From a virus, in the IMG/VR virus record IMGVR_UViG_3300046170_000136, positions 1 through 29,833 of that record: a DNA stretch of 29,833 nucleotides, one strand, 5' to 3'. Numbering within the stretch: position 1 is the stretch's first letter; each line of letters opens with the position of its first letter. Of the stretch, positions 10,512-27,262 are shown in pieces. The notes beneath the pieces were generated by a model, which saw only the letters and a program-made list of their open reading frames with translations, searched no databases and was not told the DNA's origin. Both the position numbers and the translations under genes were made by a program.

Positions 10512-10692
10512 CGGTTGTACCTCCTGTAGCAAAAAACGTAGTTCTTCTGTTCACCTCGTCTTTGTTATCTTGTTGATAAGATGAATTTAATTGTAAAACA
10601 ATTTGTTCTAGCTGTCGAACTAGCTCGGCAAAAGCTCTTGGATTATATTCTTCCGGTGGATCGGGAAATCTGGTTTGAGGTATCTTTGCCAT
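10504..10692 (-). CDS. Small helical phage protein, 62 aa
   Basis: The sequence MAKIPQTRFPDPPEEYNPRA is followed by FAELVRQLEQIVLQLNSSYQ and a polar tail. The pattern 'FP.PPEEYNP..F..L...LE.....LN' is common in short proteins that sit beside tail and fibre genes of marine phages; the function is unknown. One amphipathic helix is likely. It is coupled to the tail-hub gene by TAATG and to the next gene by an eight-base overlap that contains the latter's start. Confidence 0.7.
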   Translation of the reverse strand: MAKIPQTRFPDPPEEYNPRAFAELVRQLEQIVLQLNSSYQQDNKDEVNRRTTFFATGGTTDA

Positions 10693-12557
10693 TACCGTTG
10701 CCCATCTGGAAATACATCCATTGTAAATGTACCCATTTTAAAATTACCTGCTTCTGTGTTGCTTTCAATTTTAAAATTAGCCTGTCTACCTCTGCCTCGT
10801 ATATCTTTTTTAGTATCTGTCGGTGCAACAGTAGAGGCTGTTTGACTTACAACATTGCCATACGGATAATTTTTAAAACTCCAAGTCACTGTTAAGTCGC
10901 CTGATTGATCTCTAAAGTCAGGTATAAATCTTGCAATACGCATCAATTGATCGCCTCCTTCATCAATATTAAAATCACCTGATTGTACAAAAGCTGCCAT
11001 AGCCTCACCATCAGCGTCTGTACCAAACTCTTGTTGATAATAACTTGAAGCACCATTAGATAAACCAATCACTGTGGGAGTTGTATTAGTGGTAGTGTTA
11101 GCTTCATATTCTGTTGCCAAAGGAAACTGAAAGACACCACGGTCAACCCATGATGTTCTATTGAGTGTGCCTACGGACCAAGACTGTTCTAAATAATTAT
11201 AGACAACACAACGATTAACTTGTGGTGCTGGATTGTTATTAGGATTGGTTACATAGAACCAAATAACCTCAGCAAATTCCGTATTGACACCTGCAAAGAT
11301 TTGATCTGACTGTGTTAAATCAATATTTTCAAAAACAAAATCATCTACAGTACACGGTAATTTTTTCACGGTACCATCAAATACAAAGAAAGCATTCTGG
11401 CCCATCCAATAGGCTACATCTCTAACAACAACAGCAGAGTGTTGCCCTAATAATCCACAATTACGACCTAATTGATTTAATCCAAAAGTAAATGGTGGAC
11501 CAATAAATTGTAAGCCATGCAGTGATGTATCTGTCCATACTAAAATTTGACCACGAGCTTTATCTGCTCCAACAATACTAGAACCATCTTGTATTCGAAG
11601 TGACCCTGCAGTGTTTTCTGCTTTTGGTTGATATGTATTAATATCTTCTTGTGATGAGAAACGCAGTAATAAAGGATCTTGTGAACTTGCTGTGCCAACT
11701 GTCTTCTCTGTACCAAATAATATTAAGTGTCTGTCAGGAGTTGAGACTAAAGAAAACTTTGAGGTTGTTGGTGCGTTTGTAACTACACTTGCTTTACCTG
11801 TTAAACCGTCTGATGTCGGCGACCATTGAAAAGTAGATCCATTTAGTGCGGTTGCAATTAATAGTTCACCAAAATTATCTAAAGACCAATCACGCCCATC
11901 TAGTGTCACATTAGAAGTAGATCTTGCGGTGCCCCATGTTTCTGTATTCCAAGTTGATGTACCCCAACCATAACCAAATGTGGAAAAGGCTGGTGCAATA
12001 GCAATATCAAAAACAGCAGTAGCTGTTCCCGTTGTAGCTGTTCCTGTAGATTCATTAGCGTCTTGTTGAATAACAAAAGCATTTGCACTTGTTATTGATT
12101 TAATTTCAAAACTTCGATCAAATTGTTCTGCTGTAAAACTTGTACCAGATAGTCCTGTTGTACCAGAAAAAGTAACTATGTCTCCTGCATTAGCACCATG
12201 AGATGTAATGTTAACAGTGACATTAGCAGAACCGTTTGTTGTTGTAAAAATATTAGATACAGATGAATTAGTTTGTCGTGCAGGTGTAATGTCATACAAA
12301 ATACTGTTAGCATAAATGTATAATTTTTTATCTGTGCCGAGGGCCGCTAATCGTGTGCCATCAAGCGCAACCCAATGATGAGCATCACGAGCCACACCAA
12401 TTAATTTATTGTCTGTGGTCTTTTGCCAACCACCTATTTTTTCAGGAAGTCCGTAACGAAAACGAACATTGTCAGAGTCTATATAACTACCAGCAGCACC
12501 TAAATCACTGGTCTGTTTTTGTATCCCCGGTTTGATTTGTATTTTTGTTAATGTCAT
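10692..12557 (-). CDS. Tail hub / packaged-DNA stabilisation protein (P22 gp10-like)
   Basis: The 621-aa protein has the family's typical opening: MTLTKIQIKPGIQKQTSDLG, then VRFRYGLPEKIGGWQKT, GVARDAHHWVALDGTRLAAL and KKLYIYANSILYDITPAR. The long beta-rich body has repeated Trp-Gly and Gly-x-Asp turns (FGYGWGTSTWNTETWG), consistent with a propeller-like fold. In podoviruses such proteins (P22 gp10-like, T7 gp12-like) form the tail nozzle that closes the packaged head. The conserved N-terminus supports ATG 12557 even though this overlaps the preceding gene by 53 bases. It lies between the fibre cluster and the ejection proteins, as expected for a tail hub. Confidence 0.8.
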   Translation of the reverse strand: MTLTKIQIKPGIQKQTSDLGAAGSYIDSDNVRFRYGLPEKIGGWQKTTDNKLIGVARDAHHWVALDGTRLAALGTDKKLYIYANSILYDITPARQTNSSVSNIFTTTNGSANVTVNITSHGANAGDIVTFSGTTGLSGTSFTAEQFDRSFEIKSITSANAFVIQQDANESTGTATTGTATAVFDIAIAPAFSTFGYGWGTSTWNTETWGTARSTSNVTLDGRDWSLDNFGELLIATALNGSTFQWSPTSDGLTGKASVVTNAPTTSKFSLVSTPDRHLILFGTEKTVGTASSQDPLLLRFSSQEDINTYQPKAENTAGSLRIQDGSSIVGADKARGQILVWTDTSLHGLQFIGPPFTFGLNQLGRNCGLLGQHSAVVVRDVAYWMGQNAFFVFDGTVKKLPCTVDDFVFENIDLTQSDQIFAGVNTEFAEVIWFYVTNPNNNPAPQVNRCVVYNYLEQSWSVGTLNRTSWVDRGVFQFPLATEYEANTTTNTTPTVIGLSNGASSYYQQEFGTDADGEAMAAFVQSGDFNIDEGGDQLMRIARFIPDFRDQSGDLTVTWSFKNYPYGNVVSQTASTVAPTDTKKDIRGRGRQANFKIESNTEAGNFKMGTFTMDVFPDGQR

Positions 12558-13350
12558 CTGCTAAACTAAACATGGATCCGACATGACCATTAAAATGCAT
12601 ACTACCATGATGCTGTAATGGCGAAGCGACATCCGCCCATATCTTACCACCGATCTTAGACCATAGTCTAGAAAAATAATAGTCCTCGCTTAGGTATCTT
12701 TCACTCTCATCCCAAGGTAATTTTCCAACACCAAAAAGGTCATAACAGTTATCAGAACGCCAACTTTTACCATTGATAATCTGATCAGATATATATTTAC
12801 GTTCAGGATAAGCTTTCTTCATCTTTTTAAAGACATCTCTTTTAATAAGCATCATACCTGTTGCTGCTTCCATGACTTCACAAAACCCACCTTGTAATTT
12901 AATACTTTGTGGATTCTCAAAGTTTAAATTGTATCCTAAAGCTTTGTATTGCAATTGTTCTTCTGGAAGATCAGGATTTTTTATCAGTGCGTCTTTGACT
13001 TGATTCCAATGAATACACTTACGAGGATAAATACCACAAGCAATATCTTTGTCAGCACGAATTAGTCGTTCAATATTCATCGGTTGAAAACCAATATCCG
13101 CATCAATAAATAATAAATGAGAACCTATAAAGTTTTGATCATCTAAAAACATAGACGCAATGGTATTTCTTGCACGAGTAATTAAAGATTCATTACCCAT
13201 TGTTTGTAATTTCATACCGACACCTGATTGTGCTGTCCAGGTTTGTAGTCCCAATACACCGTGTAATGTATTTTCACTGAGCATCCCACCATACATAGGC
13301 ATACCTAAATATAATTTTATATTGTGATCTTTAAGATCGCCTTCTATCAT
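12505..13350 (-). CDS. Glycosyltransferase-like protein (GT-A fold)
   Basis: The 281-aa protein looks like a nucleotide-sugar-dependent transferase: SLITRARNTIASMFL, then LLFIDADIGF with a DxD motif (DAD, residues 83-85), then ACGIYPRK, ATGMMLIKRDVF and SEDYYFSRLW (Glu-Asp at 222-223), followed by a paired His (247-248). These follow the order of donor-binding, acceptor and base motifs in GT-A enzymes of the Anp1/family-2 type. There is no signal peptide, so it acts in the cytoplasm. Targets could be phage fibres, phage DNA or host surface sugars. Similar genes occur beside tail genes of marine phages. The ATG has a clear AAGGAG. Activity is untested. Confidence 0.75.
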   Translation of the reverse strand: MIEGDLKDHNIKLYLGMPMYGGMLSENTLHGVLGLQTWTAQSGVGMKLQTMGNESLITRARNTIASMFLDDQNFIGSHLLFIDADIGFQPMNIERLIRADKDIACGIYPRKCIHWNQVKDALIKNPDLPEEQLQYKALGYNLNFENPQSIKLQGGFCEVMEAATGMMLIKRDVFKKMKKAYPERKYISDQIINGKSWRSDNCYDLFGVGKLPWDESERYLSEDYYFSRLWSKIGGKIWADVASPLQHHGSMHFNGHVGSMFSLADDINKNTNQTGDTKTDQ

Positions 13351-13644: not shown

Positions 13645-14619
13645 TTAATCTTTATTAGCAATAATAAAGTCAACGTACTGAACGTCTAAATTAAATGTAT
13701 CACTAAAAGAGTGAGTGTGTGAACCACCTGCTAAAGAACCCGCATTGTGACTGTGTGAACCGCCACCACCTGTTTCCTCTGTGTTGAATTGACGACCATC
13801 ATTTTCATTACCTGTATTTCTTACATTTCCTGTGTACGTTGAAGTTGTAACACCAAATTCTACAGTGCTACCTTCTAAGTGACTGTGTGCAGGCATTTCT
13901 GCAACAGTTAAGGTGTGTCCCGCTGTTGATCCTGTAATAGTGACAGCAGTGCCTCCAGTTGTACCGCTAACTGTTTGATTAGTATTAAAAGCAGCAGTGA
14001 AAGTATTACTACCTCCTGTGCCTGCCGAACCTGATACAATACGTAAAGACTTGTTATTATGAGTTGTTTGTTTTGTCCAACCTGTTGGAGCTGCTGTTTG
14101 TTGAAATAACATAGAAGTTCCAGCAGGAAATGGTTCAATACCTGTTAAGGAAGCACCACTACCAACAAAGCTAGTAGCTGTAACGCTTCCTGTTACTTTA
14201 AGATCGTCACCAAATAAATCTTCTACTCTGTCTGATTTACAATATACGAAGGTCTTTGCACCCTGAGCAACCACTGTATTATTTGCAGTATGTCCTGTCG
14301 GAGCTATACTTACCGTATAAGATCCAGCAGTGTTATTATAGATAAAATAATTATTTTCTTTAGCAGGAATAAAGACAGTAATATTTCCTGTTAATGTCCC
14401 TGTCAGCTCAATAACTTTATTAGAAGATTCAGCGGTTGCAGAGGCGTTGGCCGTGGTCAGTGTAACGTCAGCACTGCCCGCTACAGATTTGGACAAATAA
14501 CCACCAGCGAACGCATCTAAAACACCGAGATTATTATTTGTTTTATCACCCCAAGTACCAGCGTTTTCGCCCGTTCCTTGTAGTTCTAGTTTAAGTCTAT
14601 CTGAATATGTTGATGCCAT
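13645..14619 (-). CDS. Tail fibre with phage tail-collar domain
   Basis: The 324-aa receptor-binding or fibre protein has an N-terminal anchor-like segment STYSDRLKLELQGTGENAGT and WGDKTNNNLGVLDAF (residues 3-37), common to many phage fibres. Beta-rich repeats follow, with VTGSVTATSFVGSGASLTGI, then the tail-collar domain FPAGTSMLFQQTAAPTGW (164-181). The C-terminal part has three His-x-His motifs (245/247, 289/291, 301/303), resembling the metal-coordinating region of T4 short-fibre tips. It ends VQYVDFIIANKD. It comes directly after the adhesin array, so it may be the main fibre to which other adhesins attach. Its Shine-Dalgarno sequence (GGAGAG) lies within the end of the 58-aa gene. Confidence 0.88.
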   Translation of the reverse strand: MASTYSDRLKLELQGTGENAGTWGDKTNNNLGVLDAFAGGYLSKSVAGSADVTLTTANASATAESSNKVIELTGTLTGNITVFIPAKENNYFIYNNTAGSYTVSIAPTGHTANNTVVAQGAKTFVYCKSDRVEDLFGDDLKVTGSVTATSFVGSGASLTGIEPFPAGTSMLFQQTAAPTGWTKQTTHNNKSLRIVSGSAGTGGSNTFTAAFNTNQTVSGTTGGTAVTITGSTAGHTLTVAEMPAHSHLEGSTVEFGVTTSTYTGNVRNTGNENDGRQFNTEETGGGGSHSHNAGSLAGGSHTHSFSDTFNLDVQYVDFIIANKD

Positions 14620-14621
14620 AA

Positions 14622-14798
14622 TTACTCTCCATTATCCACTATTGTACCACCATTTGCAACCCACTCAAGGATCTCTTGGTAGTGTCGGTTTGCTGTGTCA
14701 TGAGGTACATAGATTGTTGAATTATCTTGAAAAACAACTTTATACATAAATGAATTTGGTGGTAATTTATCATATATTTTTTCTACTGTATTAATCAT
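14622..14798 (-). CDS. 58-aa fibre-associated protein, copy 2
   Basis: The protein starts MINTVEKIYDKLPPNSF at ATG 14798; an upstream in-frame ATG at 14825 lies inside the preceding gene and is unlikely. Its C-terminal half (PHDTANRHYQEILEWVANGG, then TIVDNGE) is nearly identical to the 58-aa protein at 17859-18035; both are exactly 58 aa and both directly follow an 'NGDMSIAQRG' protein. A chaperone or clasp for the preceding adhesin is an inference from this fixed pairing. GCGGAG at the end of the preceding gene serves as its ribosome-binding site. Confidence 0.8.
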   Translation of the reverse strand: MINTVEKIYDKLPPNSFMYKVVFQDNSTIYVPHDTANRHYQEILEWVANGGTIVDNGE

Positions 14799-14800
14799 AT

Positions 14801-15934
14801 TTATAACTCCGCATCTGCTGTCCAAACTTCATAATTATTACCATTTACATAAAACATCACAGCAAAACCCTCCGACCAACCTGTAGAACCATAACCTGAA
14901 GCAATATTAAGATTAAATCCATCAATAGCGCTATTAAGTATTTCGTGCGTTCCTATTGTCCCTACAAAAGCACCAGCTTTTGTTAAAAAAGAAACATTAC
15001 CATCTCCATTTCCTGCTGATTGAGAAATAGTTACAGTAGGGGTAGACCTTTTTTTTACTTTGTATTCAAAATAACATCTAGCAGAAGCGCTACCAAATAC
15101 AGTGGATGCTTTGTGTGAACCACTTGCTGTAAAATTTTCATAATACCTCATACATTTTCTTAGGTTATTTTCTTGACTCTCAAAAGGAAAACTAGGTATG
15201 GATGTAGAATCAAACTCACCGACTTCTAGTTGTACTCCTGTAAAATAAATTTCATTAGATGCATCATCAAAAAAGTTTACTGCATTTGATGACATTTGAA
15301 ATATACTGCTTGTCGCCCATGAACTTGTTGGACTTACTTTATCATTAGGTCCACTTGCAAGATGCCAAATAACTCTTAGTCTTCTAGAACTGTCATAGTC
15401 CAGAGCAACACTTGTATCTCCTACCCATGTTATTATTTTCTTTTCCCATGTGTTTGCTGAAGAAATTGTATAATCAAATAAAACATAACGACCCGTGCTT
15501 CCTTCTGCTTTAATTTGAACACTATATGTTCCCGTTTTATTAGATTTCACCCAAAAACTTAATGTTGCACTTGGTGGATTTGATTGTCCATGTTCTAGAG
15601 GTGCTACATTAAATCCTTCAAGTTTCTGTTGAAAGAGACAATTGCCGCCTCCTGTTGGTGTTTCTGCTGTATCTACGGCTATTTTTACAGATTTAACTAA
15701 ACCAGTATTACTAGGTGCATCTGACTCTTGAGTAATGGTGCAATCTCCAGTAGCTCCACTTGTTCGTTCAAAGTCAAATCTATCTACTGTAAATCCACTG
15801 CTTGAACTAAAAGAAAAAGAAGTACCCCTCTGTGCAATAGACATATCACCATTGATAATGATAGGAGTTACGAGGCGATCGCTTGGATAACCTCTATTCG
15901 TTAATCCTGCGTTGGGTAATGTATTAAGTGCCAT
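14801..15934 (-). CDS. Jelly-roll tail adhesin with 'NGDMSIAQRG' motif, copy 2
   Basis: The 377-aa protein contains IIINGDMSIAQRGTSF near residue 27, DRFDFERTSGATGDCTITQE, SDAPSNTGLVKSVKI, then LSFWVKSNKTGTYSVQIKAE and SANTWEKKIITWVGDTS. This order of motifs is that of carbohydrate-binding-module-like jelly-roll tail proteins in marine phages. It is a paralogue of the 349-aa gene at 18035-19084, and both end in DAEL. The C-terminal third differs strongly between the copies, as expected for a receptor-specific tip. It is preceded by ATAGGAGCATAG, which holds its Shine-Dalgarno sequence. Confidence 0.82.
   Translation of the reverse strand: MALNTLPNAGLTNRGYPSDRLVTPIIINGDMSIAQRGTSFSFSSSSGFTVDRFDFERTSGATGDCTITQESDAPSNTGLVKSVKIAVDTAETPTGGGNCLFQQKLEGFNVAPLEHGQSNPPSATLSFWVKSNKTGTYSVQIKAEGSTGRYVLFDYTISSANTWEKKIITWVGDTSVALDYDSSRRLRVIWHLASGPNDKVSPTSSWATSSIFQMSSNAVNFFDDASNEIYFTGVQLEVGEFDSTSIPSFPFESQENNLRKCMRYYENFTASGSHKASTVFGSASARCYFEYKVKKRSTPTVTISQSAGNGDGNVSFLTKAGAFVGTIGTHEILNSAIDGFNLNIASGYGSTGWSEGFAVMFYVNGNNYEVWTADAEL
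15817..15862. repeat. 46-bp direct repeat, copy within 377-aa adhesin
   Basis: This stretch encodes the NGDMSIAQRG region. It matches 18949-18994 at 43 of 46 positions by direct comparison, in the same orientation. Two of the three differences are third-position changes in a row of synonymous codons, so protein conservation explains part of the identity. Confidence 0.85.
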
Positions 15935-15937
15935 GGT

Positions 15938-16504
15938 CTATGCTCCTATTAATTTAAATCCTTGAAAATATGTATCGGTTGCATTAACAGTTGGTGTTCC
16001 TGCGTATGTTCCTATGTATGCATAAAACTCTATATAGTCATTTACAGATAAACTAACTACAGTATGAACAGTTTTAGATTCTACATTAGAAGGTGCATTA
16101 GAACTATTCATATGGTTATAAGATTGTCTTATTTGTGTACCATTTTTATAAATACTAGGTACATTTGTAGCCAATTGATAAGAGCTACTTGAATTAGCAC
16201 GAAGATTGCCGATAAAAAAATATGTTCCTGCTTCAGTACAAGTGAACTTATAATTAGAAGTATCAAAATTACTTCCTGTATTAATTGTAGTGTTATTTAA
16301 CTGTATTTTAGTATGAGTTGAACCAGTAACAGTTTGATTTGAACCTAAATATGCTTCAAAAACAGGAGTATTCTGAAGTCCACCCACACTTGCTACAGAA
16401 GAAGCTAAACTTGAACTAGCAGTAAAGCTTCCCGAACCATCAGACGTGATGATGTTATTATCACCGCTGTCATTGATTAAATTTACTTTAAGTTTACTGG
16501 TCAT
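15938..16504 (-). CDS. C1q/TNF-like adhesin, 188 aa (array member)
   Basis: A short N-terminal anchor (MTSKLKVNLINDSGDNNI) is followed by a C1q-like beta-sandwich: PVFEAYLGSNQTVTG, YKFTCTEAGTYFFIGNLRAN, VPSIYKNGTQIRQSYN, SLSVNDYIEFYAYIG and FQGFKLIGA. The 'F.A.....QT', 'Y.FT...AG.Y', 'YKNG' and 'DY(I/V)E(F/L)' signatures recur in four neighbouring genes. C1q domains normally form trimers with a ligand-binding face, which suits a receptor-binding tip. The stop and start signals interlock: the Shine-Dalgarno sequence lies in the end of the upstream gene. Confidence 0.8.
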   Translation of the reverse strand: MTSKLKVNLINDSGDNNIITSDGSGSFTASSSLASSVASVGGLQNTPVFEAYLGSNQTVTGSTHTKIQLNNTTINTGSNFDTSNYKFTCTEAGTYFFIGNLRANSSSSYQLATNVPSIYKNGTQIRQSYNHMNSSNAPSNVESKTVHTVVSLSVNDYIEFYAYIGTYAGTPTVNATDTYFQGFKLIGA

Positions 16505-17035
16505 CTATGCTCCTATAATCCTAAATGCTCCAAAGTTAGTGCTTTTATTATCTGTTTCTATTTTAATACTACCACTACCCCCTCTATAAATTTTTCCATA
16601 AAGCTCAACATAGTCATTTGAGTCCATATCTATTATAACAGAAATATCCACACTCATTTGTGTTCCATTATTACTTCTAAAGTCAATCATGCGTTCAGCA
16701 TAAATACTTCCATTTTTGTAAATAGCTGTTTGTCCAAAGAGCATTTGTGAATCTTCAGCTTGAAAACGAGCAGAACCATAAACAAAATATTTTCCTGCAA
16801 TAGTAGGAGTAAATCTATAAGTAGAATTATCATATTTACTGTCTGTATCAAATATTTCAGTTTGCAAACTAACTTTAGTATATGTGTTATTTGAAATAGT
16901 TTGATCTGCGTTGGAATGTGCTTCAAACGCAGGCACCATAGTAAAAGGTCCGGACACAGTATCCCCATCAACACCAATCGTAATTGATGAGCCTGACTGC
17001 TTTATAATCTCATTTACCTTTAACTGCGATACCAC
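16505..17035 (-). CDS. C1q/TNF-like adhesin, 176 aa (array member)
   Basis: The start is GTG 17035, with GGAG seven bases upstream and no competing ATG. The N-terminal anchor MVSQLKVNEIIKQSGSSITI and a 'DGDTVSG' segment lead to the C1q-like domain: PAFEAHSNADQTISNN, TEIFDTDSKYDNSTYRFTPT, IAGKYFVYGSARF, IYKNGSIYAERMIDF, SNDYVELYGKIYRG and FGAFRIIGA. It is related to the members at 19670, 20237 and 20761. The terminal ATAGGAGCATAGATG acts as the ribosome-binding and start region of the next member. Confidence 0.8.
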   Translation of the reverse strand: MVSQLKVNEIIKQSGSSITIGVDGDTVSGPFTMVPAFEAHSNADQTISNNTYTKVSLQTEIFDTDSKYDNSTYRFTPTIAGKYFVYGSARFQAEDSQMLFGQTAIYKNGSIYAERMIDFRSNNGTQMSVDISVIIDMDSNDYVELYGKIYRGGSGSIKIETDNKSTNFGAFRIIGA

Positions 17036-17045
17036 TACTTACTCC

Positions 17046-17375
17046 TTATGACTTAGGGTTTGCGTCTTTAATAGCTTTGATTCTAGTTTTCCACGCATCG
17101 ATGTCTTTATAGATTTCATCGAGCTGTTCACCGATATCTCCGTATGCTGCTCTACGTGTAGCTTTGACTGTATTGTTTGTTTCTTCAGTGTTACCTGCTG
17201 CTTCTTGTGCAGCGAGTTGATCATCTGTTGGTTTGTCCAAACCAGAAATATTCCATTCCTTGATGTAGGGACCTTTACCATCAGAATCATCCTGAAGTAA
17301 AACATCTTTTGTAAAGTCTACAGTCTTCGAGTTAGCTGCGCAGTAAAGTTTTACCTTTGTGCTTAATGATGCCAT
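17046..17375 (-). CDS. Tail-fibre assembly/chaperone-like protein, 109 aa
   Basis: The sequence has KVLYCAANSKT-like strands followed by FTKDVLLQDDSDGKGPYIKE, WNISGLDKPTDDQLAAQ and a C-terminal helix AYGDIGEQLDEIYKDIDAWK, RIKAIKDANPK. The 'YI..W....(PT)..QL' and 'Y..IG.QLD.IY.DI..WK..I..IK...PK' patterns are familiar from small phage proteins beside fibre genes (XkdW/fibre-assembly type). It is the one member of the second cassette without a clear partner in the first. A chaperone role is inferred from similarity and position. Confidence 0.7.
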   Translation of the reverse strand: MASLSTKVKLYCAANSKTVDFTKDVLLQDDSDGKGPYIKEWNISGLDKPTDDQLAAQEAAGNTEETNNTVKATRRAAYGDIGEQLDEIYKDIDAWKTRIKAIKDANPKS

Positions 17376-17385
17376 TGTTTACTCC

Positions 17386-17859
17386 TTATAATATGACCAG
17401 CGTTCCACCACTGGCTACGTTAATTGTCTGTCCTGAGGACACTGTTACAGGACCTACTATACTCGCATTCTCTGTCGCTGCAATAGAAAGTCCTCCTGTT
17501 AATGTTTGTACATTTCTGTATGCACCATTAATACTTGTTAATTTGGCCGCGGTCACCGTTGCGTCTGTAGGAGCACCTACATCAAATGTATCACCAAAGA
17601 TAATACCAGAGAAGGTTGCACCGCTTGCAGGGGCCGCAGTGAAAGCTATCGTACCACTGGAAGAACCTGCAGTAAACGCGGATCCCGGTACTTGATAGAC
17701 TCCGTTAATATGAATCAGTAATTGTGCCAAGCTACCAATGATCTGAGTATTACTGCCTACTTGTATGGTAAACTGTGTTGTTGAACCGTCAAAGCTTCCG
17801 CTCAAATCATCAATCTGAGAGAAGTTACCTTGTACGATTGGATTGCCTAAATAGCCCAT
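17386..17859 (-). CDS. Tail-fibre protein with 'MGYLGNP' start, copy 2
   Basis: The 157-aa beta-rich protein contains GSFDGSTTQFTIQVGSN, LIHINGVYQVPGSAFTAGSS, TIAFTAAPASGATFSGIIFG and the C-terminal TSINGAYRNVQTLTGGLSIA, VGPVTVSSGQTINVASGGTL. It is a paralogue of the 146-aa gene at 21348-21788: both start MGYLGNP and share the 'NG.Y.N.QT(L/I)T' and 'N(A)..GPVT' regions. The 'NGV.Q.P...(F/Y)' domain is a recurring phage fibre module. It is coupled to the 58-aa gene by TAATG. Confidence 0.78.
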   Translation of the reverse strand: MGYLGNPIVQGNFSQIDDLSGSFDGSTTQFTIQVGSNTQIIGSLAQLLIHINGVYQVPGSAFTAGSSSGTIAFTAAPASGATFSGIIFGDTFDVGAPTDATVTAAKLTSINGAYRNVQTLTGGLSIAATENASIVGPVTVSSGQTINVASGGTLVIL

Positions 17860-18035
17860 TATTCACCACCCCCATTATCTGTAATTGTGTTTCCTTCAGC
17901 TACCCATTCGAGTATTTCTTGATAGTGTCGATTTGCTTCATTGTGAGGAACAGTCCATATAGTTCCATCTTGATAATTAATTTCATAATTAAAAGTGCTA
18001 TCTGCATTATATTTTTTTTCAACTGTACTAATCAT
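17859..18035 (-). CDS. 58-aa fibre-associated protein, copy 1
   Basis: This gene is too short for a usual gene caller but well supported. The protein starts MISTVEKKYNADSTFNYEIN and continues VPHNEANRHYQEILEWVAEG, TITDNGGGE. It matches the 58-aa protein at 14622-14798 along its length and in genomic position. Both its ends overlap neighbours as TAATG (18035 and 17859). Its Shine-Dalgarno sequence, GCGGAG, is carried in the final DAEL codons of the adhesin gene upstream. Confidence 0.82.
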   Translation of the reverse strand: MISTVEKKYNADSTFNYEINYQDGTIWTVPHNEANRHYQEILEWVAEGNTITDNGGGE

Positions 18036-19084
18036 TATAACTCCGCATCAAATTTTATTTGGTCAATATGAGTTGTTCCTCCTCTGTTACTAACAGAGGT
18101 AAATATTGAATATCCATTAGGTGATAAATGTTGACTTTCAACACTTTGACTATTAGCAACTGTTTTTGTCACACTTGGACTTGTTCTCATTTCTGTAGTA
18201 AATCCAAGAGTACCACCTAATCTATCAGATGTATTTCCGTCAAGAGCTGTTGTGTACAATCTAAAATCATTTGAATCAAGATTTTTGTAATATCTATCAC
18301 ATCTATTTTTATTTATATCAACAGGTAAGAACTCAAAGTCACTAGCAGATGTACCGACTTCTAGTTGTACTCCTGTAACATACCATTCGTTGGATGTGCT
18401 ATCAGCTAAGTTCACTTGACCGACAAATTGATTTGCATTTGTTACACTATTCCAAGAAGTATTTAAAGTTCCAGAGGTATAAGTTGTTCCTGCACCTAAA
18501 CACCAATTCACAGCAAAGGCATATCCATTATCAAAGTTAGGACCTGAAACAGTATCACCACTTATGGTAATCGTTTTCTTTTCCCATGTAGAGGCAGAAG
18601 ATATTGTGTAGGATTGAGATTGTACTCTTTGATTATCAATATCATAAAACCTTACAATATATGTTCCTGTTTTATTGGATTTAACCCAAAAAGATAGTGT
18701 TAAACTTTCTGCATTAGACGAACCAAACTTAAAACTTTGTGTGTTATATCCTTCTATTGGTTGATTTAAATATAAAAAATCATTGGCACTAGGCGAAGCA
18801 TCAGCAGTCGTACAATCAAATTTCATAGAATTTTTAAAACCTTGACCGCTTGGAACATCAGTTGATTGGGTAATAGTCCAAGTACCTAAACTACTCATAT
18901 CTGTTTTAAATCTGTCTAAATAATAAGCACCGCTTGTCTGTCCTGTAAAAGAAGTACCTCTCTGTGCAATAGACATATCACCATTAATGATGATGTTTTT
19001 AAAGTTTATATTATTAAAACCAGCTTTAGATGCAGTCACTGCATTATCAGCGATCCCCGCTGTTGGTATCGTTGTTACTGCCAT
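18035..19084 (-). CDS. Jelly-roll tail adhesin with 'NGDMSIAQRG' motif, copy 1
   Basis: The 349-aa protein starts MAVTTIPTAGIADNAVTASK, then FKNIIINGDMSIAQRGTSF, YYLDRFKTDMSSLGTWTITQ, STDVPSGQGFKNSMKFD, LTLSFWVKSNKTGTYIVRFY and SASTWEKKTITISGDTVSGP. It ends with GVQLEVGTSASDFEFLPVD and a variable tail to DAEL. The fold is probably a carbohydrate-binding-module-like jelly roll acting in host-surface recognition. It is a paralogue of 14801-15934, including a near-identical 46-bp DNA stretch over the NGDMSIAQRG region. It is followed by its 58-aa partner. Confidence 0.82.
   Translation of the reverse strand: MAVTTIPTAGIADNAVTASKAGFNNINFKNIIINGDMSIAQRGTSFTGQTSGAYYLDRFKTDMSSLGTWTITQSTDVPSGQGFKNSMKFDCTTADASPSANDFLYLNQPIEGYNTQSFKFGSSNAESLTLSFWVKSNKTGTYIVRFYDIDNQRVQSQSYTISSASTWEKKTITISGDTVSGPNFDNGYAFAVNWCLGAGTTYTSGTLNTSWNSVTNANQFVGQVNLADSTSNEWYVTGVQLEVGTSASDFEFLPVDINKNRCDRYYKNLDSNDFRLYTTALDGNTSDRLGGTLGFTTEMRTSPSVTKTVANSQSVESQHLSPNGYSIFTSVSNRGGTTHIDQIKFDAEL
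18949..18994. repeat. 46-bp direct repeat, copy within 349-aa adhesin
   Basis: This is the partner of 15817-15862, 3.1 kb away in the same orientation. Recombination between the two would delete or duplicate the intervening 58-aa, MGYLGNP, chaperone-like and two C1q-like genes. Confidence 0.85.
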
Positions 19085-19085
19085 G

Positions 19086-19673
19086 CTATGTATCTCCTAA
19101 TCTTATAAATTGCACCCAAGTTCTGCTTTGAGAATCTGCTGAATGTAATGTAACTGTACCTGTGCAAAGAGCATTTAATTTACACTTATGGGTGGTTGTG
19201 TTGGTGACATCAAAAATATGACTTGCTAAAATTGATGCTCGGCTAGATGTGTCATTAAAATTTCCAGAATTATCTGTGGCTGTAGAATAAGAAGAATTAT
19301 CTGTAGTGACTGAAATTATAGTTGTGCATCGATTACCAGCTGCTTGAGGGTCTTTAAATTGTACATTCCAAAGTATTTGATAAATACCGGTTTCGGGAAA
19401 AGTCCATATACCTGATGATTCTGACATAGCACTACCAATTGTTCCATATCCATCACTATCTACTTCTTCCCAACCTGCTGTAATAGTAGTTTCTGTATCA
19501 GCAACTAAATTTGTACCTGTGTTTATTCTCCACATACCAGCAACTTTTACTCCAGCAAAGTTAGCATTTGCTCCACTCGCTCTTGTAATAATTCCACCGC
19601 TCTCACCCATCGTAATCGTCTTCGTAGCGTCTGTGCCGAGAGGAGAGATTGTTGATACTTTGATCGTGCTCAT
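19086..19673 (-). CDS. Divergent C1q/TNF-like fibre protein, 195 aa
   Basis: The N-terminal anchor MSTIKVSTISPLGTDATKTI and MGESGG resemble the start of the C1q-like array members. The body differs: VAGMWRINTGTNLVADTETT, ITAGWEEVDSDGYGTIG, IWTFPETGIYQILWNVQF (the strand pair typical of C1q/TNF domains) and TWVQFIRLGDT at the end. It is probably the same beta-sandwich fold with a different receptor-binding surface. The ATG overlaps the upstream stop as ATGA. Confidence 0.72.
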   Translation of the reverse strand: MSTIKVSTISPLGTDATKTITMGESGGIITRASGANANFAGVKVAGMWRINTGTNLVADTETTITAGWEEVDSDGYGTIGSAMSESSGIWTFPETGIYQILWNVQFKDPQAAGNRCTTIISVTTDNSSYSTATDNSGNFNDTSSRASILASHIFDVTNTTTHKCKLNALCTGTVTLHSADSQSRTWVQFIRLGDT

Positions 19674-20236
19674 GTTCCTATCCTGTATGCTCCAAATACA
19701 CCTTGTTCTCCCGGACTGCCTACCGTTGCAGTTCCATTACTGTTATCACTTGATTCGTGAGTGTAATAAATTTCTAAATAGTCACTAGCAGATAAATCTA
19801 AGGTCAATGTTCCATTAAAAAAATTTGAACTATGTAAAGCAGAACTTCCATTATTTTGTGCGTTATCACTAAAAGCTGAACCATTTTTATAAACCTGTAC
19901 TCTTCCAAACTGCCAAGTTGTGCCAAGTGAACTTGCTCTTAATTGATAATAAATAAAATATTTACCCGCCTTACCGCTTGGAACTGTAAACCGATAATTA
20001 CTAGAGTTATCATAAGCAGAGTCTGTGTCAAAAACTTCAGTGTTAAATTGTATTTTTGTAGCAGTATTATAAACTAAAGTTTGAGCACTACTTAATTTAG
20101 CATGGAAGGCAGGATATAGAAAATTACTCTGCACATCACCACTACCCAAGGCAATCGTACCTGCATTCGTGGAACCTAATGTTAAGGTAGTAGTTCCGCT
20201 TCTAGTGTCTATTGTATCTACGAGTATCTTTGACAT
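19670..20236 (-). CDS. C1q/TNF-like adhesin, 188 aa (array member)
   Basis: The anchor MSKILVDTIDTRSGTTTLTL is followed by PAFHAKLSSAQTLVYNTATK, TEVFDTDSAYDNSSNYRFTV, GKYFIYYQLRASSLG, VQVYKNGSAFSDNAQNNG, LSASDYLEIYYTHES and GVFGAYRIGT. The 'TEVFDTDSAYDNS.NYRFT' strip is almost the same as in the members at 16505 and 20761. It starts at ATG 20236, one base after the upstream gene's TAG, with AGGAG inside that gene's final codons. Confidence 0.8.
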   Translation of the reverse strand: MSKILVDTIDTRSGTTTLTLGSTNAGTIALGSGDVQSNFLYPAFHAKLSSAQTLVYNTATKIQFNTEVFDTDSAYDNSSNYRFTVPSGKAGKYFIYYQLRASSLGTTWQFGRVQVYKNGSAFSDNAQNNGSSALHSSNFFNGTLTLDLSASDYLEIYYTHESSDNSNGTATVGSPGEQGVFGAYRIGT

Positions 20237-20761
20237 CTATGCTCCTATGATTCTATAGCCTCCGAAAACTGTTTGACCGCCTGTTCTTCTTAATACTTTG
20301 TCAGATCCAGAATTTTGATAAGCCCTAGCATCGACATAATCAGACGAACCATTTAATTGTACTATAGCAGAAATAGATATATTATTTGCACTTTCATTTC
20401 TAGTTATACCTCCTGCAATTTGAGTTGAGTTATTTTTATACATTTGCATCTCTACGCCGTCAAAATCATCATTTGTATCAAAAGCAGAATGCATAAAAAC
20501 ATAATAGAATCCTGAGGCATTGGGAGTAAATCTGTATGTTGAAGTGCTATAACAACTATTTGTATCTAAAACTTCTGTATCAAGAGATATCACAGTCACT
20601 GAACCTGTGGAAATAGTTTGCTCTGATTCTTGTGTAGCATAAAAAGCAGGCGTATTATAGACCGTGCCCCCTGAACCGAGGTTCACTGTATCACCACTCG
20701 CTCCTAGCGTTAAGCTAGTCCCGGATTGTGGTTCTAAGTTATCGACGAATATTGTTCCCAT
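20237..20761 (-). CDS. C1q/TNF-like adhesin, 174 aa (array member)
   Basis: The anchor MGTIFVDNLEPQSGTSLTLG, with SGDTVNLGSGGTV, is followed by PAFYATQESEQTISTGSV, TEVLDTNSCYSTSTYRFTPN, SGFYYVFMHSAFDTN, MQMYKNNSTQIAGGITR, SSDYVDARAYQNSGSD and FGGYRIIGA. Loops are the most divergent parts relative to its paralogues, consistent with different ligands. Its start overlaps the upstream stop as TAATG. Its end supplies the ribosome-binding site of the next member. Confidence 0.8.
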   Translation of the reverse strand: MGTIFVDNLEPQSGTSLTLGASGDTVNLGSGGTVYNTPAFYATQESEQTISTGSVTVISLDTEVLDTNSCYSTSTYRFTPNASGFYYVFMHSAFDTNDDFDGVEMQMYKNNSTQIAGGITRNESANNISISAIVQLNGSSDYVDARAYQNSGSDKVLRRTGGQTVFGGYRIIGA

Positions 20762-21351
20762 TATACTCCTATTAATTTAAATGCCATAAATCTTGTTTCA
20801 TCTTGACCAGGTTGTACTTGTGAAGTGTCGCTAGTTCCTTTAACATGATATATATATAATTCTATATAATCTGTTGAACCATTCATTTCTATAATACCTG
20901 ATACAGAAGGCGACATAGTATATCCAATACCATCAGTTCTATAATCCCATAATTGACCTAAAACTGTACTACCATTTTTTTTAATTCTAGTAATACCTTG
21001 ATACATATTACTTGGATTAAGACCATTTATAGCTACTTGACCATAACAAAAATACTTACCAGATACTTGCGGTGTAAATCTATAATTTGTTGAATTGTCA
21101 TAAGCATTATCTGTATCAAATACTTCAGTATTAATATTTACTTTTACTTCTGTAGAATCACTGATACCTGTTTGGGCAGAACCAAGATAAGCCGTAAATG
21201 CTGGAGCATTACTCCCACCAAATCCTGTTTGTGTTCCATTGTTGGTAATGGTTACACCACTAGGAATAGTTATTGTATCACCACTATCGCCTAAGGTAAC
21301 TGTGCCATTGTCAGCAAGAGGTGCTAATTTATTTACTTCAAGTGTGCTCAT
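20761..21351 (-). CDS. C1q/TNF-like adhesin, 196 aa (array member)
   Basis: The anchor MSTLEVNKLAPLADNGTVTL with DSGDTITIPSGVTI is followed by PAFTAYLGSAQTGISDS, TEVFDTDNAYDNSTNYRFTP, VSGKYFCYGQVAINGLN, ITRIKKNGSTVLGQLWDY, STDYIELYIYHVKGTSD and FMAFKLIGV. It is the first of the array in transcription order. It starts with an ATGA overlap with the MGYLGNP gene and ends with ATAGGAGTATAATG, which starts the next member. Confidence 0.8.
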   Translation of the reverse strand: MSTLEVNKLAPLADNGTVTLGDSGDTITIPSGVTITNNGTQTGFGGSNAPAFTAYLGSAQTGISDSTEVKVNINTEVFDTDNAYDNSTNYRFTPQVSGKYFCYGQVAINGLNPSNMYQGITRIKKNGSTVLGQLWDYRTDGIGYTMSPSVSGIIEMNGSTDYIELYIYHVKGTSDTSQVQPGQDETRFMAFKLIGV

Positions 21352-21788
21352 ACGACTGTCAGATTACCCTCCACTGTGACGGTGCTTGTAAATGTTACAG
21401 GGCCTGCTAAGAATGCGTTATCGGTTGATGCTACTGTAGTCGTAGCGGTTATAGTTTGTAAGTTTTCATAGACACCATTGAAAGATGTCATCATGCTTGG
21501 TTGAATACTGTTTGCACCCGGTGTGTTTTGATCTAATAAAATACCATTTAGAAAAATAACAAAACAAGAATCAGATGACGCTAAGGCTGTTGTAAAAGTT
21601 ATTTGTGCACCGTTGACTGAGTAGTCTGTCGTTGGTTTCTGCCTCACTCCATTACGAAGAACGGCAATATCTTCTGGTACGGCCGCTGCTGCTGAAAGAG
21701 CATACGATACAGATCCATCACCTGTTAATGTTTGCACGGATGTTGTGGTTGTAAAATCTTTTGTTACTGGATTTCCTAGGTAGCCCAT
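21348..21788 (-). CDS. Tail-fibre protein with 'MGYLGNP' start, copy 1
   Basis: The 146-aa beta-rich protein has MGYLGNPVTKDFTTTTSVQT, LTGDGSVSYALSAAAAVPED, IAVLRNGVRQKPTTDYSVNG, ITFTTALASSDSCFVIFLNG and TSFNGVYENLQTITATTTVA, GPVTFTSTVTVEGNLTVV. The 'NG..Q.P..DY...G..I.FT.A' domain recurs in phage tail fibres. It is a paralogue of 17386-17859 and begins the first cassette. No enzymatic motif is present; it probably forms a shaft or anchor to which the following small adhesins attach. Confidence 0.78.
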   Translation of the reverse strand: MGYLGNPVTKDFTTTTSVQTLTGDGSVSYALSAAAAVPEDIAVLRNGVRQKPTTDYSVNGAQITFTTALASSDSCFVIFLNGILLDQNTPGANSIQPSMMTSFNGVYENLQTITATTTVASTDNAFLAGPVTFTSTVTVEGNLTVV

Positions 21789-21797
21789 ATGTTACCC

Positions 21798-22154
21798 CTA
21801 GGTGCTGATGCTATCTATAAAAGATACCCATACATTTAAACTAGCGTCTGTATCAGATTTAACTTTTAAAGCATCTCCAGACTGAATATTAATTTTTGAT
21901 CCGCCATCTATTAACTCTAAAGATCCACCTGCTGCAATCGGAGTTCCTTTTGCAAAGTAAGAATCAGCTGAACCACCACTAGCAGTGCTAGTAATATAGA
22001 CGTCAGCTTTAATAGTAGCTGTTGTGATATTGGTAAGTCTTATTCCAATAAGAGCATCATCACTATTTGATGTTAAAACTGTTCGTACAGTTGTACCAAT
22101 ATTCACGTCACCTGCGGAATCAAATGCTACAACTCTTTCAAAATCTTGGGCCAT
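21798..22154 (-). CDS. Small beta-sandwich virion protein, 118 aa
   Basis: The sequence begins MAQDFERVVAFDSAGDVNIG, then IGIRLTNITTATIKADVYIT, IAAGGSLELIDGGSKINIQS and GDALKVKSDTDASLNVWVSF. It is probably a compact beta-sandwich. The final hairpin resembles the 118-aa protein at 10155-10511, and proteins of this sort are common near fibre genes of marine phages. A tail decoration or fibre-attachment role is inferred. The start has a Shine-Dalgarno-like AGAGGAG about six bases upstream. Confidence 0.68.
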   Translation of the reverse strand: MAQDFERVVAFDSAGDVNIGTTVRTVLTSNSDDALIGIRLTNITTATIKADVYITSTASGGSADSYFAKGTPIAAGGSLELIDGGSKINIQSGDALKVKSDTDASLNVWVSFIDSIST

Positions 22155-22803: not shown

Positions 22804-23730
22804 CTAAGCTACCTCTCTGTCATCAACTTCTGACCATGTATTTGTAGCAGAATCATCAACTTCTGTCCATGTGTTCGTGTTACTGTCATCTACAGGAGTC
22901 CAATCGTTCGTGGCTCCCGGTACGATAGGAGACCAAGCAACAACTCCTACACTTCCTAAAGTGGTGGATATATCAATCCCCGTTAAAGAAACAACAGCTA
23001 TTCCTGTTGCAGTAATGCTACCTTGAGCAGAAGTAATTGATTGTCCTGTAACAGGGACATCGGCTCCTGCTTGACCTTGAGCCTGACCTTGAACAACGGT
23101 GAGAGCTATTCCTGTAGGAGTAACTAAGGCTGATCCTGTGACTGTTTCATCACCAATCGCAGTTGTTAAGCTTTCTCCTGTGACAGAGGCAATTGTGATA
23201 TTTTCAATACTAACAGTTCCAAGAGTTGAGGTTAATGTTTGACCTGTAACAGAAACAGTAACACCTCCGGTAACTAACTCATCACCAATTGTACTTGTTA
23301 AACTTTCTCCAGTAACCGTTGCAACGGCAGATCCTGTAACAACAGAATCACCAATAGTTGTTTCAATAAGAGCTTCTGCTCCAACAACAATGCTTGTCTC
23401 ACCACCAGCAGCAATAGAGTAAGGACCTATTGCAGAGGATATTGACTGTCCTGTTAGTGATACAATAACATCAGAACTAAATATAGTAACACTTCCCTGT
23501 GTAGAAGTGAGAGAAATACCTGTTGGAGTAACATTAGCATTTGCGCTAACGGTTTCGTTACCTATAGCTGTACTGAGGGATTGTCCTGTAAGTGTAACAA
23601 CAGCATTACCTGATATGGTAGCTGTTCCAACAGCAGTATTTAGTGCTATGCCAGAAAGGGCAACTGTAACATTCTTGCTACCTTGAGCACTAAAAGAATC
23701 TTCAGCAAAAGTTGTAGTACCAAAAAACAT
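22804..23730 (-). CDS. Ala/Val/Thr/Gly repeat fibre protein, 308 aa
   Basis: Roughly eleven degenerate repeats of about 22 aa follow the scheme A.V.VTG.SLTS.IG..TVTG, covering residues 19-270 (examples: ATVTGESLTSTIGDELVTG, ASVTGESLTTAIGDETVTG). They probably form a long beta-solenoid or beta-helix shaft. A short C-terminal block has three 11-aa repeats of the type NTWTEVDDS. There is no signal peptide or Cys. Similar repeat proteins beside fibre genes are known to me from marine phages without a function. A fibre or tail-spike shaft is likely; repeat number could vary between relatives. Confidence 0.75.
   Translation of the reverse strand: MFFGTTTFAEDSFSAQGSKNVTVALSGIALNTAVGTATISGNAVVTLTGQSLSTAIGNETVSANANVTPTGISLTSTQGSVTIFSSDVIVSLTGQSISSAIGPYSIAAGGETSIVVGAEALIETTIGDSVVTGSAVATVTGESLTSTIGDELVTGGVTVSVTGQTLTSTLGTVSIENITIASVTGESLTTAIGDETVTGSALVTPTGIALTVVQGQAQGQAGADVPVTGQSITSAQGSITATGIAVVSLTGIDISTTLGSVGVVAWSPIVPGATNDWTPVDDSNTNTWTEVDDSATNTWSEVDDREVA
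22821..22919. repeat. Three 33-bp tandem repeats at the end of the repeat-protein gene
   Basis: Units at 22821-22853, 22854-22886 and 22887-22919 begin CATCAACTTCTGACC, CATCAACTTCTGTCC and CATCTACAGGAGTCC. They encode the C-terminal W-(S/T)-(E/P)-V-D-D repeats of the 308-aa protein. The third is the most diverged. Confidence 0.8.
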
Positions 23731-24222: not shown

Positions 24223-24888
24223 TTACTTACCTCCTGGAGCCACTGATTGTAACGGCACACGCAGGACTCCGTCTGCGTATTCGTCTCTTCGTTTCCTGCC
24301 CATTTGAGTAACAGATAAACCTTGTACAGCTTGACTGTACTTCTGATCGTATAATTGCACAAATGTAGGATTTTTCAAGTAGGAAAAAGCTTCAGCAACA
24401 ACACCATATATTAATATTTCTGGTGCATTTGTAGAAAGCCATGTTGTAGTATTGGAACTAGATAATCTATCAGGAGTTTTATTATACCAAAGTTCTACTG
24501 TATAAGTAGCATTTGGTGTAGGAGCGAATATAAAAGTATTCTGATCCCAGTTTGCGTAATAAATCGGTTTTCCTGTGTTATTAATTCTATCTACATTATA
24601 TTCATCAATAAAAGTTGTATCTCTTTGTTCTGCCCAAATACGGTCCTTTGTTGTGTTATCAACAATTTGAACACCTCTTTCTAAATCAAAATCATCAGGT
24701 AAAGTAATAAAAGGACTACCTATGGTGAAACTTGAAGTGGCAAACTTACGGAAAGCATCAAGATCTAATTGTTTTTGTACTTTATTTTCAGTGTTGATTA
24801 TAAATACATTTAAAATAGCATCTGTTAAAACATCAGATCCTACCTCTGTATAATTTCTAACATTGCTAAGAAGTTCAGTATAATTCAT
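24223..24888 (-). CDS. Head-tail adaptor-like protein 2, 221 aa
   Basis: An N-terminal helical part (MNYTELLSNVRNYTEVGSDV, then VFIINTENKVQKQLDLDAFR) is followed by a beta domain (ITLPDDFDLERGVQIVDN, IYYANWDQNTFIFAPTPNAT, VELWYNKTPDRLS) and a C-terminal helix (EILIYGVVAEAFSYLKNPTF). This helix-beta-helix plan is that of connector/adaptor proteins below the portal (P22 gp4, SU10-type, T7 gp11). It is the second of two such genes in a row, both 221 aa. It starts as ATGA with the zinc-ribbon gene. The assignment is by pattern. Confidence 0.72.
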   Translation of the reverse strand: MNYTELLSNVRNYTEVGSDVLTDAILNVFIINTENKVQKQLDLDAFRKFATSSFTIGSPFITLPDDFDLERGVQIVDNTTKDRIWAEQRDTTFIDEYNVDRINNTGKPIYYANWDQNTFIFAPTPNATYTVELWYNKTPDRLSSSNTTTWLSTNAPEILIYGVVAEAFSYLKNPTFVQLYDQKYSQAVQGLSVTQMGRKRRDEYADGVLRVPLQSVAPGGK

Positions 24889-25215: not shown

Positions 25216-25881
25216 TTACCCTACATAAAAGTCACGAGGCACAATATGCACTGAAGTAGATTGACTATCCTCTGTTAATGCTCTTTGTAATTCTGCTTCG
25301 TATCTTCTTTCTAATTCTTGTGAACGTTCAGGAGCTACTTCTTGTGATGTGTAGTAGGCTAATCCTGAAACTAAACAAGGTAAAAATCTGTAAGGGGCAT
25401 CAGGAGTATTAGTATAAACACCTGCATCTTCGATTCTTCCTACATAATAATAATTAATTTGTGTGTCAGTTGTATTAGGTGTTTGATATAGCGTTATTGT
25501 AACGTTTGTTAAATTTCTTCTTACATAGTATTGACTAGGTGTGCCTTGTGATGTTTTGTTAGGTAAGTTCTCATATTCAGATCTAGAAATCTTAGTCATA
25601 CTAGTATCAGTAGAACCATTTCTAAATACAACTTCCAATACATCAGATGCATCGGAGGGAGCAGTATATGTTGTTGTCCCAGCTGTTAAATTAGATGTAT
25701 TATTTTTAACTTTCCAAAGGTGAATACCTCGGTTTCCCCATTCAGAAAAAAGTAAATTAAGATTATCTCTTGCTGCGGATAGTTGATATCCAGTACGCAC
25801 ATCCATACCACAACGGGCATAGGCACGCTCAACAAGCCTATCAATACTTAAATCGAATGATGTGGTTCCCGAGGTAGCCAT
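25216..25881 (-). CDS. Head-tail adaptor-like protein 1, 221 aa
   Basis: Features are IDRLVERAYARCGMDVRTGY, QLSAARDNLNLLFSEWGNRG, IHLWKVKNNTSNLTAGTTTY, APSDASDVLEVVFRNGS, MTKISRSEYENLPNKTSQGT, PSQYYVRRNLTNVTITLYQT, INYYYVGRIEDAG and YRFLPCLVSGLAYYTSQEVA. This is the phage adaptor (P22 gp4/SU10-type) pattern common in marine podoviruses: N-terminal helices, 'W...GI.LW', then a beta domain with 'GTPSQYYV' and 'DAPYRFLPCL'. It would form part of the ring between portal and tail nozzle. Confidence is higher than for the second adaptor. Confidence 0.8.
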   Translation of the reverse strand: MATSGTTSFDLSIDRLVERAYARCGMDVRTGYQLSAARDNLNLLFSEWGNRGIHLWKVKNNTSNLTAGTTTYTAPSDASDVLEVVFRNGSTDTSMTKISRSEYENLPNKTSQGTPSQYYVRRNLTNVTITLYQTPNTTDTQINYYYVGRIEDAGVYTNTPDAPYRFLPCLVSGLAYYTSQEVAPERSQELERRYEAELQRALTEDSQSTSVHIVPRDFYVG

Positions 25882-27204: not shown

Positions 27205-27262
27205 TTTTTTTACCTCCAGGTTTCATTATTTGTTGAGCCATTTGTGATCTACTTATGGCCAT
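27155..27262 (-). CDS. Tiny basic protein, 35 aa ('MAISRSQM')
   Basis: The frame encodes MAISRSQMAQQIMKPGGKKN and a Lys/Arg tail (RKRQSRRKKKV). The 'ISR(S/A)Q...QI.KPG.KK' start is like short marine-phage proteins I have met. It begins in a TAATG overlap with the 74-aa gene and overlaps the 91-aa gene by 50 bases in another frame. Because the overlap is long and the tail may simply reflect the Lys-rich neighbour, I am only moderately sure. Confidence 0.5.
   Translation of the reverse strand: MAISRSQMAQQIMKPGGKKNGKVVRKRQSRRKKKV

Follow-up and report, generated by a model that had tools for sequence, protein, structure and literature searches.

How phages of the HTVC023P and HMO-2011 types, common viruses of ocean surface bacteria, recognise their hosts is poorly understood, and a run of small genes in the IMG/VR record IMGVR_UViG_3300046170_000136 raises the question of what a doubled series of such genes is for and how it came about. 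The whole record of 29,833 bases was analysed and is referred to here as the window; it is probably a partial genome, because end repeats are not present. We think it probable that the region codes for a receptor-binding apparatus of combinatorial design, in which anchors are combined with tags serving as docking addresses, exchangeable heads and chaperones dedicated to particular heads. What is new here is the position-specific tag on each adhesin; C1q islands and branched receptor-binding proteins (RBPs) were previously known.

All of the open reading frames named in the initial annotation of this DNA are present, on the minus strand and with the lengths it gave, and its observation that four gene types recur in two runs is supported by pairwise homology far above chance. 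By BLASTP within the window, the two MGY proteins (146 and 157 residues) are 32% identical (E 9e-15), the two NGDM proteins (349 and 377 residues) 39% (E 7e-49) and the two 58-residue proteins 58% (E 8e-21), and the C1q-like proteins share 29-40% identity with one another (E down to 8e-34). Its boundaries for the two-copy cassette, 13645 to 21788, are too wide, as the 324-residue gene at 13645-14619 is a separate tail-fibre or collar gene outside the repeat. The genes are as follows.

21798..22154, minus strand: S118, conserved structural gene of 118 residues at the head of the array; it precedes MGY1 in relatives, and the HTVC100P and HMO-2011 homologues are annotated as structural.
21348..21788, minus strand: MGY1, 146 residues, putative anchor of unit 1; median 80% identity across contigs; phrog_18673, tail fibre N-terminus.
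20761..21351, minus strand: p1 adhesin, 196 residues, tag MSTLEVN... (about 21277-21351) and C1q-type head, from tag/position statistics and head typing.
20237..20761, minus strand: p2 adhesin, 174 residues, tag MGTIFVDNLEPQSGTSLTLGASGD (about 20687-20761) and C1q head; Pfam C1q 2e-6, tag 94% identical within position.
19670..20236, minus strand: p3 adhesin, 188 residues, tag MSKILVDTIDTRSG... (about 20162-20236) and C1q-like head, from tag and head comparison.
19086..19673, minus strand: p4 adhesin, 195 residues, tag MSTIKVSTISPLGTDATKTIT (about 19599-19673) and 'RLGDT' head; remote C1q similarity by hhalign.
18035..19084, minus strand: tip1 adhesin, 349 residues, tag MAVTTIPTAGIADNAVT (N-terminal segment, about 19001-19084) and NGDM head; phrog_4492 2e-59, CBM-like model, slot tag common to unrelated heads.
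17859..18035, minus strand: 58-residue NGDM partner, copy 1, from its linkage to NGDM.
17386..17859, minus strand: MGY2, 157 residues, putative anchor of unit 2; median 90% identity, profile match to P-SCSP1u fibre gp28 at 8e-12, fold resembling podovirus fibre anchors.
17046..17375, minus strand: XkdW-family gene, 109 residues; PF09636 2.7e-11, median 86% identity.
16505..17035, minus strand: p5 adhesin, 176 residues, tag MVSQLKVNEIIKQSGSSITIG (GTG start, about 16961-17035) and C1q-type head, from tag and head comparison.
15938..16504, minus strand: p6 adhesin, 188 residues, tag MTSKLKVNLINDSGDN... (about 16430-16504) and C1q head; Pfam C1q 2.8e-8, human C1q in PDB 2.6e-6.
14801..15934, minus strand: tip2 adhesin, 377 residues, tag MALNTLPNAGLTNRGYPSDRLVTP (about 15863-15934) and NGDM head; phrog_4492 2e-39, slot tag in 28/29 tip2 genes.
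14622..14798, minus strand: 58-residue NGDM partner, copy 2, with an ATG at 14798; a TTG at 14825 would give 67 residues.
13645..14619, minus strand: tail fibre/collar-like gene of 324 residues at the end of the array; phrog_31104 5.5e-29, phrog_12796 tail fibre.
10692..12557, minus strand: tail hub/nozzle-like protein of 621 residues, a conserved neighbour; phrog_3287 6e-84, 43% identity to HTVC023P.

The initial annotation passed over what proves to be the main feature of these runs: all eight adhesin genes start with a tag that is specific to the position, about 25-35 residues long or, at the tips, about 10. The consensus is MST[LI]EVN at p1, MGT[IV]FVDNLEPQSGTSLTLGASGD at p2, MSKILVDTIDTRSG at p3, MS[TI][LI]KVSTISPLGTDATKTIT at p4, M[VA]SQLKVNEI at p5 and MTSKLKVN at p6, and for the tips it is M[AST]VT[TK] (slot 1) or M[AP]LNT[LI]P (slot 2; 28 of 29 tip2 genes), regardless of the head that follows. 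Positions were assigned from gene order alone and the tags were not used for it, while the C1q families for gene finding were built on full-length proteins, and the tags thus aided recruitment. Over their first 25 residues, p1-p6 adhesins share 63-94% identity with others of the same position but 24% with those of other positions, and for 154 of 155 tags the most similar one comes from the same position. This signal falls from 0.92 at residues 1-8 to 0.15 at residues 41-48, fading past residues 35-40 or so and approaching background towards the C-terminus. Because the ratio of median nonsynonymous to median synonymous divergence (dN/dS) is about 0.07-0.33, the tags are, to judge by their codons, constrained at the protein level. 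A scan with the p2 tag found 63 stretches with one match apiece, nearly all of them contigs already known, which adds little independent sampling; a p5 scan requiring an ATG start found five stretches only, since GTG is a frequent start codon of p5.

The order of the tagged genes is fixed. Our comparison sample comprised about 260 related stretches from IMG/VR and phage records, and in dozens of related contigs the order is MGY1-p1-p2-p3-p4-tip1-MGY2-XkdW-p5-p6-tip2. Complete relatives share one layout, with S118 first, a 122-residue gene between MGY2 and the XkdW gene, and collar genes and the hub last; the 122-residue gene (83% identity among relatives, and present in most) is missing at 17375-17386 in the window and in a few others. 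The adhesin numbers, four plus a tip in unit 1 and two plus a tip in unit 2, are constant across relatives. Order was also counted by tags in 119 stretches, using short tag motifs only and de-duplication by containment only, with some contigs counted repeatedly: p1 precedes p2 in 67/71 cases, p2 precedes p3 in 56/56, p3 precedes p4 in 50/50 and p4 precedes tip1 in 45/46, followed by tip1 before MGY (40/40), XkdW before p5 (29/29), p5 before p6 (38/38) and p6 before tip2 (39/39), and every adhesin tag occurs at most once per stretch. Median pairwise identity is 80-90% for the anchors and XkdW and 29-43% for the adhesins and tips. A more distant relative, contig L041, has rearranged tags, one resembling that of p6 ahead of tip1 and one resembling that of p1 right after the second MGY gene, and may give a clue to what sets tag order.

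The window belongs with the pelagiphages (phages of SAR11, an abundant bacterium of the ocean) related to HTVC023P, and its 621-residue hub is 44% identical to that of phage DSL-LC04, 43% to that of Pelagibacter phage HTVC023P and 39-40% to those of HTVC023P relatives; there are no nucleotide-level matches to the window among annotated phage records. The HTVC023P-type group consists of widespread marine podoviruses (PMC9599517). The closest contig by hub (L016, IMGVR_UViG_3300046170_000386; 95% identity) has an unrelated receptor-binding region, in which genes of 361, 474 and 454 residues stand upstream of the hub in place of the eight-adhesin array.

Several kinds of head follow the tags, including C1q-like, 'GKIGQ', 'RLGDT', NGDM and others. 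C1q-type heads are found at all six adhesin positions and at neither tip, and GKIGQ-type heads at all eight, according to a head-type table in which tip2 NGDM heads are mostly scored as 'other' through trimming, the separate tip counts being the valid ones for those. The initial assignment of C1q heads is confirmed by Pfam PF00386, for which p6 (34.5 bits) and p2 (28.5 bits) are above the cut-off of 23.7 with p3 and p5 below it, and by human C1q in PDB. Neither p1 nor p4 has a Pfam match; p1 is homologous to p5 (BLASTP E 8e-34), and the 195-residue p4 protein, which had also been called C1q-like, is so only remotely, by profile-profile comparison (hhalign 98.4%), with its BLASTP similarity to the others limited to the first 35 residues.

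Head similarity depends, as far as the alignments indicate, weakly on position. The nearest neighbour of a head is at the same position in 58 of 154 cases (25 expected), mostly through near-identical pairs, and among heads whose closest relative is less than 50% identical it is 15 of 76, near chance. Heads that are 97-98% identical occur in different phages at p1 and p2, and at p4 and p5; the window p2 head is 87.5% identical to the p3 head of contig L247, and its p5 head 74% to the p3 head of L245. DNA identity in such comparisons is about 30-60% over the upstream flank and tag, 90-100% over the head, and drops at the gene end. Read at the sequence level, these alignments show recombination that swaps heads between positions and between phages while the tag is retained, as the modular exchange proposed in the initial annotation had anticipated. 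Duplication of heads inside one genome is ruled out by a best within-genome identity of at most 47%, and the heads therefore derive from other phages. Neither template-like repeats nor paired inverted repeats flanking heads were seen in 12.5-23 kb of the window, and family scans of the proteins of the window, itself a partial genome, found no reverse transcriptase or invertase; a diversity-generating retroelement or invertible cassette is disfavoured by the lack of supporting repeats or enzymes in the window, though the contig is partial.

The two MGY proteins are the candidate anchors. The MGY profile matches the fibre protein gp28 of cyanophage P-SCSP1u at residues 570-678 (E 8e-12), which lie outside its resolved N-terminal anchor, and a K1 capsule depolymerase (E 3e-9). 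The top Foldseek matches of the MGY2 model (predicted local distance difference test, pLDDT, 66) are podovirus fibre anchors including 7boz (T7 gp17) and 8i4m, with E values of 1e-3 to 2e-2; the matches of the model span 1e-3 to 5e-2, with a template modelling (TM) score of about 0.4, and are suggestive of a fold akin to the T7 gp17-type anchors. MGY is N-terminal in nearly all of the longer proteins that contain it, including fusions to C1q, NGDM and the S74 chaperone domain in relatives; MGY-C1q fusions number 13 proteins, including HTVC100P gp40 and HTVC115P gp64, and MGY-NGDM fusions four. The anchor and heads are therefore most likely parts of a single functional chain, which the window encodes in pieces, and these fusions agree with the earlier proposal that small separate genes stand for parts of longer fibres.

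The NGDM head is modelled by AlphaFold as a beta-sandwich (pLDDT 85) with a disordered tag, resembling carbohydrate-binding module (CBM) families CBM4, CBM16 and CBM22 (for CBM4-2, Foldseek E 2.5e-6 and TM by target 0.65), so the models favour a CBM-like jelly roll, in line with what was first suggested for it. The fold assignment comes from the model, and the NGDM profile finds PDB matches at chance level only. Of 113 NGDM cases, 102 have the 58-residue gene next in line, and of the 103 members of the partner family, 102 stand directly behind NGDM. It tracks the head and not the slot: NGDM tips in either slot are followed by it in 15 of 15 cases, and a Phage_tail_APC (PF16778) gene follows 11 of 40 non-NGDM tips. 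Distances among NGDM proteins and among their partners are correlated (Mantel r 0.50, 0/999 permutations). Against Pfam, including PF16778, copy 1 of the partner matches no family and copy 2 gives only a sub-threshold match to an unrelated one. By analogy, the simplest and most likely role is an NGDM-specific folding or assembly chaperone, because fibre-chaperone pairs move together elsewhere (PMC10579305).

These parts probably fit together in a simple way. The two conserved MGY proteins would be virion-proximal fibre anchors, one per unit, with four small adhesins and a tip on unit 1 and two and a tip on unit 2, in fixed order. The N-terminal tag, whose sequence marks the place of each adhesin, would dock it there, and the C-terminal heads, whether C1q/TNF-like, GKIGQ, CBM-like NGDM or of other kinds, would bind glycans or proteins of the cell surface. 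Recombination replaces the head and keeps the tag, NGDM travelling with its own 58-residue partner and many other tip heads with a Phage_tail_APC chaperone. The net effect would be one long fibre broken into an anchor and several addressed plug-in heads. The chances seem to us evenly balanced that the eight tags form an orthogonal docking code, each steering its head to one site on a two-anchor virion scaffold, such that heads of unrelated folds are traded one gene at a time across positions and lineages with stoichiometry and geometry constant, and with independent tag sets in the HTVC023P-type and HMO-2011-type phages.

Some points weigh against the plug-in apparatus. The location of the array proteins in virions is deduced from the genes; the MGY model is weak on the pLDDT, Foldseek and TM values given above; a tag of 25 residues would have to tell docking sites apart; and tag conservation seems partly to reflect exchange of tag DNA, because in the same contig pairs tags p2-p4 have diverged less at synonymous sites (0.23-0.26) than MGY1 has (0.40), with weak correlation (r 0.06-0.27). 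The last point also favours a different reading, in which the tags serve above all as seams for recombination, small stretches of DNA kept alike by head exchange and with no docking role. We regard this as unlikely. The idea of pure seams is weakened by the dN/dS values, which argue for constraint on the protein, and by the persistence of eight distinct tags in fixed order; cross-position swaps begin past the tag, and a seam leaves unexplained why positions keep different tags. The same pattern recurs with unrelated tags in HMO-2011-type phages.

It is distinctly improbable that the small proteins are alternative adhesins, one or a few used at a time, or that not all of them are virion parts. 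The array proteins of this group are indeed known from genes alone, and distal fibre parts are seldom resolved by cryo-electron microscopy (P-SCSP1u, PMC10575957). However, the genes are on a single strand, almost gapless, and fixed in number and order, the 12.5-23 kb region lacks the repeat layout of an invertible cassette or diversity-generating retroelement, and the fusion of the same heads to MGY in relatives suggests that heads and anchor act together.

The initial annotation offered segmental duplication as one origin of the two units, and four gene types in the same order, homologous in pairs, as well as an ancient common ancestor of MGY1 and MGY2, are what block copying of unit 2 from unit 1 (or the reverse) and later divergence would leave. 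On the refuting test set out in that annotation itself, the genes have nearer relatives in other phages than inside the window. For MGY1 as for MGY2, identity to proteins of other contigs reaches 99%, against 32% between the two, and in a tree MGY2 clusters with the HTVC115P protein and L041 (support 99/93), away from MGY1. NGDM349, the tip1 protein, is 86% identical to a protein of a differently laid-out phage (L005) and 77% to one of L247, and its in-window partner comes only 58th among 69 proteins in similarity to it. The in-window pair identities are unequal (32, 39 and 58%), the slot tags of the two units are unlike, and most relatives have non-NGDM tips in slot 1 or in both slots. Because of the similarity ranks, the MGY tree and the slot contents, the two-unit repeat is, on these comparisons, real yet not the product of segmental duplication: a recent block duplication is refuted, and block copying in any form is very improbable. 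MGY1 and MGY2 are, by the same comparisons, old and separately conserved anchors, though the anchor by itself may have been duplicated very long ago, and the NGDM tips in both window units are a coincidence of slot filling, seen in part in contigs L033 and L200 as well.

Parts of this arrangement have counterparts in known systems. C1q variability and metaviromic islands in pelagiphages were already reported in 2014 (Mizuno et al., PMC3909814); as described in passages of that paper, the islands contain C1q, carbohydrate-binding, tail fibre and XkdW genes as the window does, with a variable C1q head behind a conserved N-terminal part and a proposed receptor-binding role, but those passages describe no ordered multi-gene array, position tags, cross-position head exchange or anchor and partner genes. 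In the branched fibres and tailspikes of CBA120 and RaK2, too, a number of RBPs are linked by conserved domains at the N-terminus and differ in their C-terminal heads (PMC10253068), and the N-terminus of CBA120 TSP4 is a weak match to the MGY model. They dock through large N-terminal XD/head domains and have enzymatic heads, whereas the window has putative docking tags of about 25-35 residues, separate MGY anchors and C1q/CBM heads. Pfam and PHROG scans of the array found no T4 gp10-like XD branching domains, and we therefore do not class it with the CBA120/RaK2 type, which it resembles in the way it would work.

Closer parallels come from marine phages. The array of HMO-2011 (GU557055) and those of the uncultured L008 and L009 have two MGY-like anchors, a series of small tag-plus-head genes and an NGDM plus 58-63-residue pair at the array end, but with another tag set and mostly another head family, and the tag/position pattern is unannotated in the record. 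Among these three, most tags are 85-100% identical, heads 23-48% and anchors 86-97%, with one position and the tip less clear. The Pelagibacter podoviruses HTVC115P and HTVC100P share with the window an NGDM plus 59-65-residue pair, XkdW, C1q genes and MGY, but have MGY and C1q in one protein of 267-285 residues and a single NGDM tip. In the Alteromonas phage A5/V22 modules (PMC10579305), a head and its cognate chaperone are co-transferred among unrelated phages, much as the NGDM head and its putative chaperone seem to be, but with one fibre, one chaperone of 195-240 residues and no addressed array. In the open-licence literature searched, no ordered adhesin array is described whose genes carry short position-specific tags.

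Some other genes in the window are of interest. Between the array and the hub, a 281-residue protein (12505-13350) that is conserved in several relatives has a sub-threshold match only to glycosyltransferase-2, and a 308-residue protein of VTGxSLTxxxG-type repeat units (22804-23730) varies in size among relatives. Two SU10 adaptor family genes (PF24175) lie close together at 24223-24888 and 25216-25881 (E 4e-26 and 5e-14), and this doubling could be relevant to the two-anchor arrangement. At 27262-29440, genes of 486, 171 and 74 residues, which have no meaningful Pfam match, resemble by eye a set of genes in HTVC115P (505, 142 and 69 residues; L003 15159-18021).

Should the tags prove to be docking addresses, the array would be a natural plug-in system for making many-headed receptor-binding structures from small parts. 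The hypervariable metaviromic islands of marine phages would then have a concrete mechanistic explanation, and in HTVC115P, HTVC100P and HMO-2011 the first 25 residues of a protein would tell its place.

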